From Oceanospirillum multiglobuliferum (GTDB lineage: Bacteria > Pseudomonadota > Gammaproteobacteria > Pseudomonadales > Halomonadaceae): a stretch of DNA of 64,000 bases. The position numbers and the translations under genes were made by a program. This document shows, one piece after another, positions 33,574 to 38,526 of this stretch. The stretch covers positions 1 through 64,000 of the forward strand of contig NZ_FUXG01000008.1 in the NCBI RefSeq assembly GCF_900167095.1, written 5' to 3'. How positions within the stretch are numbered: the stretch's first letter is position 1; every line of letters begins with the position of its first letter. The notes beneath the pieces are model-generated. The model saw only the letters and a list, made by a program, of their open reading frames with translations. It made no database searches and was not told where the DNA came from.

Positions 33574-34821
<1,248 letters not shown>

Positions 34822-34896
34822 TCAGCCTATCAGTTTGGCTGAAGTATGAATATTGTTATGAAAAACCGCTAGATACAGTATCAATAAAAGTTCGGC

Positions 34897-34951
34897 ACTA
34901 TAACATAGGCAGATTTACATATGAGCGACATAAATTTGCGCTAAGCTGACA
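34897..34951 (-). promoter_or_regulatory. ArgR-type tandem operator and -10 element upstream of astC
   Basis: On the minus strand the sequence reads TGTCAG-N8-AA-N5-TGTCGC-N8-AA (34951 down to 34915). That matches the Pseudomonas ArgR consensus of two direct repeats TGTCGC-N8-AA-N5; the second half-site is exact. Twelve bases further is TATAGT (34902-34897), a 5/6 match to the -10 box, with no TTGACA at -35. The operator would overlap -35, as expected for ArgR activation. The consensus is recalled from Pseudomonas literature; the matching is seen here. Confidence 0.68.
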
Positions 34952-35000
34952 TTTAACAAAGATCCGAAGCAATATTAGACATAAGTCGGTATCCTAGGGG

Positions 35001-35006
35001 TATAAA
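35001..35006 (+). promoter_or_regulatory. Candidate -10 element for argR
   Basis: TATAAA lies 35 bases before the argR start. TAGACA (34976-34981) is the nearest -35 candidate, with a long 19-base spacer. Transcription would diverge from astC. Confidence 0.35.
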
Positions 35007-35041
35007 CTTTAGTCAAATAATCGTGCAAAGGAGATTGTCAT

Positions 35042-36082
35042 TTGGTCAGCACCGTCGATGCTCAGTCTAAACAGAGCCGCCCTCCTTTAAAGTACGGCTT
35101 TTTGCTTTTACCCAACTTCTCATTGATTGCTTTTTCATCTGCGATAGAGCCTTTGCGGATGGCAAACTGGGTAACGGGCGACGAGTGCTACGAAACGATA
35201 TTGATCAGTCACGACGGTGAACCTGTTGCCAGTAGTTTTGGTGTTAAAACTATCGTCGATTGCAGTCTGGATAATATTCCGATGTTAGATGCTGTATTTG
35301 TGTGTGGCGCTAGTCCCATCGCCCGCACAGGTAACGATGCCATTATCGCTTGGCTTCGGAAACAGCGTCAAAGTGGTATGGCTATTGGCGGTATAGGCAC
35401 AGGTTCTTATCTTCTCGCCTGTGCAGGTTTATTAAATAACCATAAAGCGACCATCCACTGGTGGGATATTGAAAGTTTGCGTGAAGACTTTCCACTAACA
35501 CAGGTTACCAATAATTTATTTGAGATTGATAATAAGCGTTATACCTGTAGTGGTGGTACTGCTGCGATGGATATGATGCTGTTTCTGATCAGTCAGCGAC
35601 ACAACATGGATTTGGCCGCATCTATTTCTGAGCAGTTTGTTTGTGAACGTATGCGCGCCAGTGATGATCAACAACGCATTCCACTTAAAGCGCGTATAGG
35701 CGTTAGCCAGCCTAAACTCATTGAAGCGGTACAATTAATTGAAGCTAACATAGAAGAACCTCTCAGTGCGGATGATTTAGCACGTCATGTCGGTGTCTCT
35801 AGGCGTCATTTAGAGCGCTTATTTAAAAAGCACTTACAAACAGTACCTTCTAAGTATTACCTTGAGCTACGCTTAGATCGTGCTCGTCAGATGCTCAGGC
35901 GCACAGATAAGTCGGTATTACAGGTGGGCCTAGCCTGCGGTTTTTCCAGTGCTTCTCATTTTAGCACCGCTTATCGTAGTCATTATGGCTTAACCCCGAG
36001 GGAGGAGCGTAAAAAACTCAGCGAAGTAGAAAGTCATGAGTTAAATGTTACCTCCAGATCAATTTTGCTAGAAAATCATTAA
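35042..36082 (+). CDS. argR: AraC-family arginine regulator (GlxA-type, ArgR of Pseudomonas type)
   Basis: 346 aa. An N-terminal DJ-1/PfpI-like domain (KYGFLLLPNFSLIAFSSAIEPLR, about 17-195) is followed by a C-terminal AraC DNA-binding domain (two HTH units, VSRRHLERLFKKH and GFSSASHFSTAYR). This is the architecture of Pseudomonas ArgR, an arginine-responsive activator of the aru/ast and aot genes. That it sits between astC and aot-like genes, with matching operators on both sides, supports the name. The start is TTG at 35042 behind an AAGGAG eight bases upstream; no better ATG exists. Related GlxA-type paralogues include carnitine (CdhR) regulators, which cannot be fully excluded. Confidence 0.8.
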   Translation: MVSTVDAQSKQSRPPLKYGFLLLPNFSLIAFSSAIEPLRMANWVTGDECYETILISHDGEPVASSFGVKTIVDCSLDNIPMLDAVFVCGASPIARTGNDAIIAWLRKQRQSGMAIGGIGTGSYLLACAGLLNNHKATIHWWDIESLREDFPLTQVTNNLFEIDNKRYTCSGGTAAMDMMLFLISQRHNMDLAASISEQFVCERMRASDDQQRIPLKARIGVSQPKLIEAVQLIEANIEEPLSADDLARHVGVSRRHLERLFKKHLQTVPSKYYLELRLDRARQMLRRTDKSVLQVGLACGFSSASHFSTAYRSHYGLTPREERKKLSEVESHELNVTSRSILLENH

Positions 36083-36175
36083 TTTTTAGTGTTATCAATC
36101 AGATAGAGATGATTTAAACTATAGGCACTTAATGTCTTTATTGTAGAAATACTCCAGTAGATCACCCTGATAGGG

Positions 36176-36231
36176 GGTCGCTTGAGGTGAATTCAATGGC
36201 CGATTTTGAAAATATACAACACGGCTATTCT
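36176..36231 (+). promoter_or_regulatory. ArgR-type tandem operator and -10 element upstream of aotP-like gene
   Basis: The plus strand reads GGTCGC-N8-AA-N5-TGGCCG-N8-AA (36176-36212), matching the spacing of the ArgR tandem repeat. The first half-site is 5/6, the second weak. Thirteen bases later is TATTCT (36226-36231), so the geometry to the -10 box nearly equals that at astC. An extra half-site-like TGTCTT-N8-AA occurs at 36133-36148. Confidence 0.55.
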
Positions 36232-36336
36232 GATACTCTCAAATTAAGATCGACTACCTTAGACCGTACCACAAGTTTCTCGTAGAACCTTGGAGCGCAC
36301 CGTAGTCTCATATCAGGCAACCTAGAGAAGAATAAC

Positions 36337-37107
36337 ATGCCAGAAAATAGCGTCATTTGCTTAAAGAATATTCATAAATCCTTTGGTGACCTGAAAGTCT
36401 TAAAAGGTATCGATCTACAAGCCCATGAACATGATGTGATCTCAATTATTGGTTCCAGTGGTTCTGGCAAAAGCACTTTTTTACGCTGCATCAATCTACT
36501 GGAAACACCTACAGAAGGGGAAATTTGGATCACGGGCGAGAAGTTAAAGTTAGCCCGCAATAAGAAGGGGGACTTAGATGCCTCTGATCCTCGTCAGCTG
36601 GCCGCTATGCGTGCACGGGTGGGTTTTGTATTCCAAAACTTCAACCTCTGGCCCCATAAAACACTGCTAGAAAACATTATTGAAGGCCCAACTCAAGTAT
36701 TGGGTAAAAGCAAAGATGAAGCTATCGCTTATGCAGAGCAGCTTTTACGCCGTGTCGGCTTAGAAGAGCGCAAAGACTTTTACCCAAGCCAAATTTCTGG
36801 TGGTCAACAGCAACGTGTTGCTATTACCCGCACCTTAGCAATGGACCCACAGTTAATTCTGTTTGATGAGCCAACCTCTGCACTTGATCCTGAACTGGTC
36901 GGTGAAGTACTAGGCGTGATGCGCGACTTAGCAGGCGAAGGTAGAACTATGCTGATCGTAACTCATGAAATGCAGTTTGCACGGGAAGTGTCTAATAAAG
37001 TGATGTTTCTACATCAAGGTCAAGTAGAAGAGTTTGGTCATCCTGATCAAGTTTTTGGTAACCCTACCTCTGAACGCTGTCGTGAATTTATTTCTTCTGT
37101 TTACTAA
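36337..37107 (+). CDS. aotP: Basic amino-acid ABC transporter, ATP-binding subunit
   Basis: 256 aa, of the HisP/AotP class. Walker A is GSSGSGKST, the Q-loop is FQNFNLWPHKT, the signature is SGGQQQR and Walker B is LILFDEPTSALDPE, ending with the H-loop THEM. It energises arginine/ornithine/histidine uptake with the two permeases downstream (spacings 40 and 2 bases). No periplasmic binding protein is encoded here, although aotJ normally heads this operon in Pseudomonas. It starts at the ATG at 36337, behind a GAGAAG sequence. Confidence 0.92.
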   Translation: MPENSVICLKNIHKSFGDLKVLKGIDLQAHEHDVISIIGSSGSGKSTFLRCINLLETPTEGEIWITGEKLKLARNKKGDLDASDPRQLAAMRARVGFVFQNFNLWPHKTLLENIIEGPTQVLGKSKDEAIAYAEQLLRRVGLEERKDFYPSQISGGQQQRVAITRTLAMDPQLILFDEPTSALDPELVGEVLGVMRDLAGEGRTMLIVTHEMQFAREVSNKVMFLHQGQVEEFGHPDQVFGNPTSERCREFISSVY

Positions 37108-37147
37108 GCAGAACAGCTTTCATTCTTTTTGATTTGAGGTACTTCTG

Positions 37148-37834
37148 ATGTTTGATCTCAAAGGCTTTGGTGATCAACTGCTAGCAGGCACAATGGTGAC
37201 AATTGAGTTGGCTTTGGCCAGTTTGGTTGTGGGTTTGTGTTTGGCAATTTTAGCAGCCACCGCACGTTTATCTGATAACTGGTTTGCTCGAAATATCGCA
37301 CTGGCTTATACCAGCGTGATTCGCGGTATTCCTGAGTTGTTAACCGTTTTAATCATCTACTTCGGTTCTGCCACTGCGATTATGGCCGTAGCAAGACTAT
37401 TTGGTTACGATGAATATATCGAAATTAGCCCATTTGTAGCCGGTGTGATTGCATTAGGGCTAACCTTTGGCGCTTATGCCAGCGAAGTGTTTCGTGGGGC
37501 AATTATCGCCATTCCAAAAGGCCAGCGTGAGGCGGGTTTAACTATTGGTATGTCACCGCTCAAGATTTTTTGGCGCATCACTTTGCCCCAAGTTTGGCGC
37601 TTGGCTTTACCTGGTTTAGGCAACTTATTTCTAGTGCTGCTGAAAGATACTGCGTTGATTTCGGTGGTTGGTTTGCACGACCTAATGCGTAAAACCACTG
37701 AAGCGGTAAGCTACTCAAAAGAGCCATTCTTGTTTTACAGTGCTGCTGCCTTTATCTATTTAGCACTCACCATCCTAACGATGGTTTTTATCCACTTTAT
37801 GGAAAAACGTAACAGTCGTTGGGGGGATAAATAA
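37148..37834 (+). CDS. aotQ: Basic amino-acid ABC transporter permease (HisQ/AotQ-type)
   Basis: 228 aa with five predicted membrane helices. The EAA loop (AIPKGQREAGLTIGMSPLKIFWRI) is characteristic of polar amino-acid permeases. The N-terminal LAGTMVTIELALASL and IRGIPELLTVL blocks fit HisQ. It pairs with the next permease to form the transmembrane channel. It is the second of three transport genes in an operon ending at the terminator near 38540-38578. Confidence 0.92.
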   Translation: MFDLKGFGDQLLAGTMVTIELALASLVVGLCLAILAATARLSDNWFARNIALAYTSVIRGIPELLTVLIIYFGSATAIMAVARLFGYDEYIEISPFVAGVIALGLTFGAYASEVFRGAIIAIPKGQREAGLTIGMSPLKIFWRITLPQVWRLALPGLGNLFLVLLKDTALISVVGLHDLMRKTTEAVSYSKEPFLFYSAAAFIYLALTILTMVFIHFMEKRNSRWGDK

Positions 37835-37836
37835 TT

Positions 37837-38526
37837 ATGGATTTTAACGTTATCATTCAATACTTTCCGCGTTTGCTGGAAGGTGCAATGACCACTCTAG
37901 AGTTGGTGGTGGTTTCAGGCCTAATCGGCTCGTTGCTTGCCTTGCCTCTTGGTCTTGCCCGTCACTCGCATCGCCCTTGGTTATATGCTCTGCCTTATGC
38001 CTACATCTTCTTCTTCCGTGGCACGCCCTTGCTGGTGCAGATCTTTTTGGTGTACTACGGTTTAGCTCAGTTTGAATTTGTGCGTGAGAGTGCGCTTTGG
38101 CCTTATCTCAGAGAGCCGTATTGGTGTGCGATTATCGCATTTTCACTGAATACCGCTGCTTATACCGCAGAAATATTGAGAGGGGCGCTGGGTAACGTAC
38201 CCAGAGGTGAGATTGAGGCCGCCAAAACTATTGGTATGCGTAGGGTGATGCTTTACCGTCGTATTATGCTACCAAGAGCATTTGGAATGATCATGCCTGC
38301 TTATGGTAATGAGGTGATTCTTATGCTGAAAAGTAGTGCCTTGGCCTCGACAATTACATTGTTAGATCTAACGGGGACTGCACGTACTATTATCGCCAGA
38401 ACTTACACCCCAATTGAAATTTTCTTAGCTGCTGGCTTTATCTACCTAATGCTAAGTTTGATCATCATCCAGTTCTTCCGCTTTTTAGAGAAGCGTAGTA
38501 ATAGACACTTGGTCAGTACTCGCTAA
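37837..38526 (+). CDS. aotM: Basic amino-acid ABC transporter permease (HisM/AotM-type)
   Basis: 229 aa with five predicted membrane helices and an EAA-like loop (NVPRGEIEAAKTIGMRRVMLYRRI). The FFRGTPLLVQIFLVYYGL block is typical of HisM-type subunits. It begins two bases after aotQ, implying coupled translation. Third and last gene of the transport operon. Confidence 0.92.
   Translation: MDFNVIIQYFPRLLEGAMTTLELVVVSGLIGSLLALPLGLARHSHRPWLYALPYAYIFFFRGTPLLVQIFLVYYGLAQFEFVRESALWPYLREPYWCAIIAFSLNTAAYTAEILRGALGNVPRGEIEAAKTIGMRRVMLYRRIMLPRAFGMIMPAYGNEVILMLKSSALASTITLLDLTGTARTIIARTYTPIEIFLAAGFIYLMLSLIIIQFFRFLEKRSNRHLVSTR

Follow-up and report, generated by a model that had tools for sequence, protein, structure and literature searches.

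Two ArgR-type tandem operators flank a gene encoding an AraC-type regulator in the 64-kb window (the whole stretch of Oceanospirillum DNA analysed here), and this regulator has the neighbours of Pseudomonas ArgR, astC and aotPQM; both operators are conserved in relatives and are followed, at two different distances, by conserved −10-like hexamers. Judged from sequence comparison, it is probable that the regulator is a Pseudomonas-like ArgR that uses the two operators and activates astC and aotPQM from these two spacings. On this reading, the AraC-type protein encoded at 35042–36082 would be this ArgR and would bind the direct-repeat operators on either side of its gene, arginine being the probable co-inducer. 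It would activate the catabolic astC, which is divergent from argR, as well as aotPQM, the arginine/ornithine transporter genes downstream. The system resembles that of Pseudomonas ArgR, an AraC/XylS-family regulator of aot and aru operons, in domain type, neighbouring genes, tandem half-sites, and 5-bp spacer (PMC10963909), and our reading would add an Oceanospirillum-like genome that lacks the hexameric ArgR to the range of this system. Among the titles and abstract openings listed from the open-access literature, none reported an ArgR of the AraC type for these genera, and none reported the spacing rule.

Operators flanking argR and the surrounding genes

The genes and operators of the region are, in order of position:

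33574–34800, minus strand: astC/aruC, catabolic succinylornithine transaminase (TIGR03246, 696.3 bits against a cut-off of 609.95)
34915–34951, minus strand: operator O1 (astC/argR), ArgR-type tandem half-sites TGTCAG-CTTAGCGC-AA-ATTTA-TGTCGC-TCATATGT-AA
35042–36082, plus strand: argR, AraC family, with a DJ-1/PfpI-like N-terminal domain and a TTG start (PF12833, PF00165, PF01965)
36176–36212, plus strand: operator O2 (upstream of aotP), tandem half-sites GGTCGC-TTGAGGTG-AA-TTCAA-TGGCCG-ATTTTGAA-AA
36337–37107, plus strand: aotP-like ABC ATPase (HisP/ArtP-type matches below the equivalog cut-offs)
37148–37834, plus strand: aotQ-like permease (top match ArtQ, 217.4 bits, below cut-off)
37837–38526, plus strand: aotM-like permease (top match ArtM, 202.4 bits, below cut-off)

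Since the same genome carries a separate argD on another contig (C25), with argF next in order, we assign the transaminase to the catabolic AstC type; no convincing operator was found in front of this argD-argF pair. The aotP-like ATPase shares 62% identity with the AotP encoded in a Pseudomonas-type aot operon. Unlike in Pseudomonas, argR of the window is oriented divergently to astC and lies ahead of aotPQM rather than after aotP, and no aotJ is present between aotP and aotM. The aotPQM-like operon (36337–38526) contains no gene for a periplasmic binding protein; two related loci (L006 and L008) show a gap between aotP and aotQ that is roughly the size of such a gene. Further genes of the succinyltransferase pathway are located on contig C41, where astB and an AstA-type gene were identified and a second AstA-type gene and astD were read from translations; in this cluster (L146, 335–7802), the two AstA-type genes, astD, and astB lie together with genes for an M20 peptidase and a solute-binding protein. 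No convincing operator was found in front of this astA-D-B cluster.

Both operators exist as the initial annotation had described them. We scored operators by the number of matches at the 16 fixed positions of the tandem TGTCGC-N8-AA-N5 pattern. O1, with 14/16, is the top tandem match on both strands of the window, while O2, with 12/16, is equalled by five other places (both strands); ten Markov-shuffled 64-kb controls contained on average 0 places with a score of at least 14 and 5.2 places with a score of at least 12, so that O1 is distinctive by itself and O2 depends on conservation. When each intergenic region was shuffled 2000 times, the observed best score was reached in 0 and 0.2% of the shuffles. 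A scan of the whole genome with the bare pattern, allowing up to three mismatches, is useless alone, since the reversed pattern yielded more matches (508 + 579) than the pattern itself (232 + 269).

We compared 71 loci encoding relatives of the regulator, 21 of which have astC divergent from argR. An O1-type site on the astC strand scored at least 12/16 in all 21 and at least 13 in 20 of these, the lone locus at 12/16 being L022; besides the operator itself, an alignment of the window with the 21 relatives showed two conserved blocks, CTGT and TTTT..TGATACT. A site with at least 12/16 lay no more than 560 bp upstream of argR in 53 of the 71 loci, and one with at least 13 in 35 (21/35 and 8/35, respectively, in the Marinomonas subset). 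O2 recurs in six relatives spanning five genera, aligned in L001, L002, L006, L008, and L013 and, in L023, represented by a similar site recognised by its score; no aligned O2-type site was found in 36 of the 42 loci, mostly from Marinomonas, that have aotP after argR. In L067 and L068, the operator precedes an aotJ-like gene rather than aotP. This comparison of orthologous intergenic regions, which the initial annotation had proposed, thus found the half-sites of both O1 and O2 conserved.

A sequence-only model (R1) was built from 39 relatives' operators, with the window sites left out. On the 3.5-Mb genome, with 150 of 556 first-look candidates scored, it placed O1 first (E = 8.4e-4) and O2 second (E = 0.02), a ranking that is not a blind discovery because R1 includes orthologues of both; the two again ranked first and second within the window. 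Four of 31 control loci were matched, two with a window-type argR (L161 and L176) and two that are candidates from the same genome as the window (L155 and L156). There was no match at any GbdR- or CdhR-type locus of this control, nor in L153 and L164, two of the four loci around copies at least 60% identical to the regulator. Both Pseudomonas-type loci were without a match at E up to 5; partial operator sites are visible in Pseudomonas. The conserved operator set may be used for regulon prediction. A perfect 16/16 operator is located in Marinobacterium halophilum (L014, 9715–9751) between genes that, from their translations, are antiporter-like and gdhB-like, and 15/16 operators in L018 and L019 also precede a gene that is gdhB-like by translation. 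A 13/16 operator in Terasakiispira (L057, 4019–4055) lies between astC and a gene of AstA type, as judged by its translation.

Spacing between operators and promoters

The promoter elements considered in the window are:

34877–34882, minus strand: conserved astC −10, GATACT, 32 nt past O1 (−10-like hexamer here in 20 of 21 astC operators)
34897–34902, minus strand: TATAGT, 12 nt past O1, the astC −10 of the initial annotation
34901–34906, minus strand: weak −35-like ATGTTA, 18 nt before the conserved astC −10
34990–34995, plus strand: argR-side −10, TATCCT, 38–40 nt from the distal operator edge
36226–36231, plus strand: TATTCT, 13 nt past O2, the aotP −10 of the initial annotation
36234–36239, plus strand: conserved aotP −10, TACTCT, 21 nt past O2, at the same offset in relatives

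Distances were measured from the 3′ end of the operator to the base with which the −10 hexamer begins; hexamers were scored with rough weights of our own making. Among the 21 astC operators scored, window included, the hexamer is at 32 nt in most (33 in L008), with a single exception at 21 nt in L016; L022, left out of this set, also has a hexamer near 32. The −35-like element at astC reads CTGTT in most relatives and coincides with a conserved cTgt block in the alignment. At the aot operators of relatives, the hexamers at offset 21 are TACTTT, TAATTT, TACCTT, TACTGT, TAAGTT, or TAAGGT, and the Pseudomonas-type aotJ region has TAGAAT at 21. The mean −10 score peaks at 32 for the 21 astC operators and for 15 argR-divergent operators in front of another gene; it peaks at 21 for two Pseudomonas-type aotJ sites and two aruC sites and for 13 operators labelled aot at the time, of which three (L014, L018, and L019) actually precede the gdhB-like gene (by translation, with no family search). 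Toward argR, a −10-like hexamer 38–40 nt from the operator is present in 16 of 20 astC-type rows (window included) as compared to one of seven others.

Upstream of argR, 57 of the 71 regions have a hexamer scoring at least 5.6 within 1 nt of 32, and 12 of these 57 by count, eleven by name (L008, L014, L037, L046, L048, L057, L058, L059, L063, L064, and L065), also have one near 21 that scores at least 5.6, so that these loci can be assigned to either class; a hexamer near 21 only is found in L016, L023, L024, and L033. In a hand-picked set of 29 operators, about one per genus and promoter, the top −10 of 23 lay no more than 1 nt from either spacing, 21 or 32, against 4.0 expected (L014 is among the six misses), a comparison in which the two windows were chosen after the spacings were first scored and related promoters are not independent, the AgcS site described below being the only one scored afterwards.

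The conserved −10s thus lie 32 and 21 nt past O1 and O2, respectively; the difference of 11 bp corresponds to roughly one turn of the helix, and a shift of this size also occurs between orthologous promoters: astC has 21 rather than 32 nt in Marinobacter (L016, one genome), and gdhB has 21 rather than 32 nt in two Kistimonas-type loci (L023 and L024). With the conserved −10s as reference, the aotP operator would end at about −34 and cover the −35 region, as in class II promoters, and the astC operator, in the same orientation, would end upstream of this by one helical turn, at about −45 and ahead of the weak −35. The initial annotation had both operators overlapping the −35 position and both promoters activated in class II fashion; by the conserved promoter elements only the aotP operator overlaps −35, and class II for both promoters is not supported. 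The −35-like element of astC, ATGTTA, is a weak match to TTGACA.

The 21-nt spacing at aot is also that of the Pseudomonas-type aot operon, whereas the Pseudomonas-type aruC site lies one turn closer to its −10 than the astC operator does. AraC-family activators of the MarA type likewise act from two kinds of promoter position, including a class II position overlapping the −35, as described in PMC10268841; the class I sites described there are distal and reversed, whereas the operators of the window have the same orientation and are 11 bp apart in position. These promoters provide natural pairs with which to probe the tolerance of an AraC-family activator for a shift of one helical turn.

Identity of the regulator and alternative readings

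The regulator is the single copy of its kind in the 3.5-Mb, 98.75% complete genome (the next best protein is 26% identical), and its closest relatives are Oceanospirillum proteins, with 88% identity in O. beijerinckii. For comparison, we used two genomes with argR between aotP, aotQ, and aotM and astC (tblastn), in which aotJ, aotO, and genes of the aru type were recognised among the open reading frames; we take the argR product of these aot-argR-aru loci to be Pseudomonas ArgR. The window regulator is 43% identical to this protein. In its DNA-binding domain it shares 65% identity with the Pseudomonas-type ArgR, 56% with a GbdR-like protein, and 51% with a CdhR-like protein, and the corresponding values for the N-terminal sensor domain are 32%, 43%, and 44%; the Pfam matches of the Pseudomonas-type ArgR are the two DNA-binding models alone. 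Arg_repressor_C, the family of the hexameric ArgR, had no match in the genome of the window and matched in 8 of 14 control genomes; the regulons of hexameric ArgR in gammaproteobacteria also have arginine genes as targets (PMC5343134), through a protein of an unrelated family.

From 115 distinct proteins we computed a quick tree of 86 (with Marinomonas thinned) and a careful tree of 46. The 46-protein tree joins the window clade with the Pseudomonas-type ArgR and two more rows (96/91), on a long branch, and GbdR-like proteins form a separate clade in these trees. The AU test rejects a grouping of CdhR with either the window clade (p = 0.019) or the Pseudomonas-type ArgR (p = 0.04) and does not reject the window clade with the Pseudomonas-type ArgR (p = 0.332), the window clade with GbdR (p = 0.213), or the Pseudomonas-type ArgR with GbdR (p = 0.255). 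CdhR, GbdR, and SouR share with ArgR a half-site motif of 21-bp period; as reported in PMC5806209, CdhR operators consist of direct GGTCGC-type half-sites with a 15-bp spacer, those of GbdR, SouR, and ArgR being very similar. CdhR and GbdR belong to the same protein group as the window regulator and differ in serving carnitine and betaine catabolism. Because of this sharing, the half-site motif alone cannot identify an ArgR, and the identification is carried by the gene context (67 of the 71 relatives' loci contain astC and/or aot genes) and the DNA-binding domain. The best reading of the regulator is thus that of an ArgR of the AraC type; a relationship to GbdR is compatible with the tree.

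It is unlikely that the regulator is instead a DJ-1–AraC protein of the GbdR or CdhR kind that senses another metabolite, with O1 and O2 as its operators. This reading draws on the shared half-site (PMC5806209), on the closer N-terminal domains of GbdR- and CdhR-like proteins, on the AU result for GbdR, and on the best NCBIfam match, which is GbdR (NF052371) with 406.8 bits; that score, however, is under the curated cut-off of 480 (the Pseudomonas-type ArgR scores 312.7 on the same model), the DNA-binding domain is closest to ArgR, a window-type copy occurs alongside GbdR-clade copies in each of three genomes (G034, G097, and G103), and the arginine genes recur beside the relatives' genes as stated above.

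Two further alternatives concern the sites rather than the protein. The initial annotation gave both operators nearly the same geometry, with TATAGT and TATTCT as −10s and thus equally spaced class II promoters. Each of these hexamers is the top-scoring −10-like hexamer in its downstream region of the window and outscores the conserved −10; nevertheless, we consider it quite improbable that they are the real −10s, since the elements at 32 and 21 are conserved across genera and these two are not: TATAGT is absent from the corresponding place of all 20 other astC operators scored, and TATTCT from that of the 12 further operators classed as aot at the time, the place of TATTCT being occupied in five aligned relatives by TAATTT (twice), CAATTT, CGTTTT, or CCTTTT. 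Neither the equal geometry nor the two −10 assignments are supported. That the sites serve repression instead of activation, or that the aotP site is a chance match, is very unlikely. Pseudomonas ArgR also represses carA (PMC4997734), and O2 by score alone does not stand out in the window; against this, O2 is conserved in the intergenic alignment, the placement of the operators ahead of or across the −35 region suits activation, as do the weak −35 boxes, and the aot and aru operons of Pseudomonas are activated with ArgR (PMC8871633).

Possibly rewired and additional candidate targets

In nine loci (from Marinomonas, Zooshikella, Motiliproteus, Kistimonas, and related loci), the gene divergent from argR belongs to one family of about 1,600 residues, identified in L017 by PF05088 as the NAD-glutamate dehydrogenase gene gdhB, with astC located beyond it where the locus reaches that far. 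Six genomes of the same genus as the window show no convincing operator upstream of gdhB and have astC behind the retained operator and promoter. In Pseudomonas, gdhB is reported to be arginine-induced (PMC9028604; PMC8871633). It is about as likely as not that a single AraC-type activator would work at two set distances from the promoter, with its operator in the same orientation and shifted by one helical turn, that orthologous promoters would switch between these distances, and that its regulon would have been rewired around a retained operator–promoter cassette (serving gdhB, with astC beyond, in other genera and astC alone in Oceanospirillum) and would have recruited the DUF3461 gene.

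The gene encoding a DUF3461 protein (PF11944) is a candidate new target of the regulator, as suggested by the sequence upstream of it. It is present in six of six same-genus genomes and is preceded by a TGTCNT-N8-AA-N5-KGTCGC site that scores 9.1 to 17.6 in four of these and 1.8 in G145, scores that random 460-bp pieces reach in 1.1% (9.1) and 5.1% (1.8) of cases; in G149 the site is seen by eye in the upstream sequence, the scan having chosen another place. The best −10 lies at 20–22 nt in the five scored sites, and in the genome of the window, the site (G000:C21:118691-118729; L085 and L187) is followed by TATAAT 21 nt on; a site upstream of this gene was among the weaker matches of R1 in that genome. 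The upstream neighbours, judged by translations, are of three kinds among four genomes. Among 20 DUF3461 loci outside the genus there was no convincing site, the nearest being in G103 (score 4.1, −10 at 21). Of 145 genomes of the order, 13 encode an ArgR copy with 60% identity or more; DUF3461 occurs in all 13 and in 8 of the other 132, a co-occurrence that shared descent may explain. Among the titles and abstract openings listed from the open-access literature for DUF3461, UPF0325, or YaeH, most of which concern an unrelated acronym, none showed a link to arginine; the candidate site offers a testable link between this family of unknown function and arginine metabolism.

Another operator-like site (G000:C38:8005-8043, in L155; PWM score 19.9, E = 0.12) is located about 336 bp upstream of a gene encoding an AgcS sodium:alanine symporter and has TATAGT 32 nt on.
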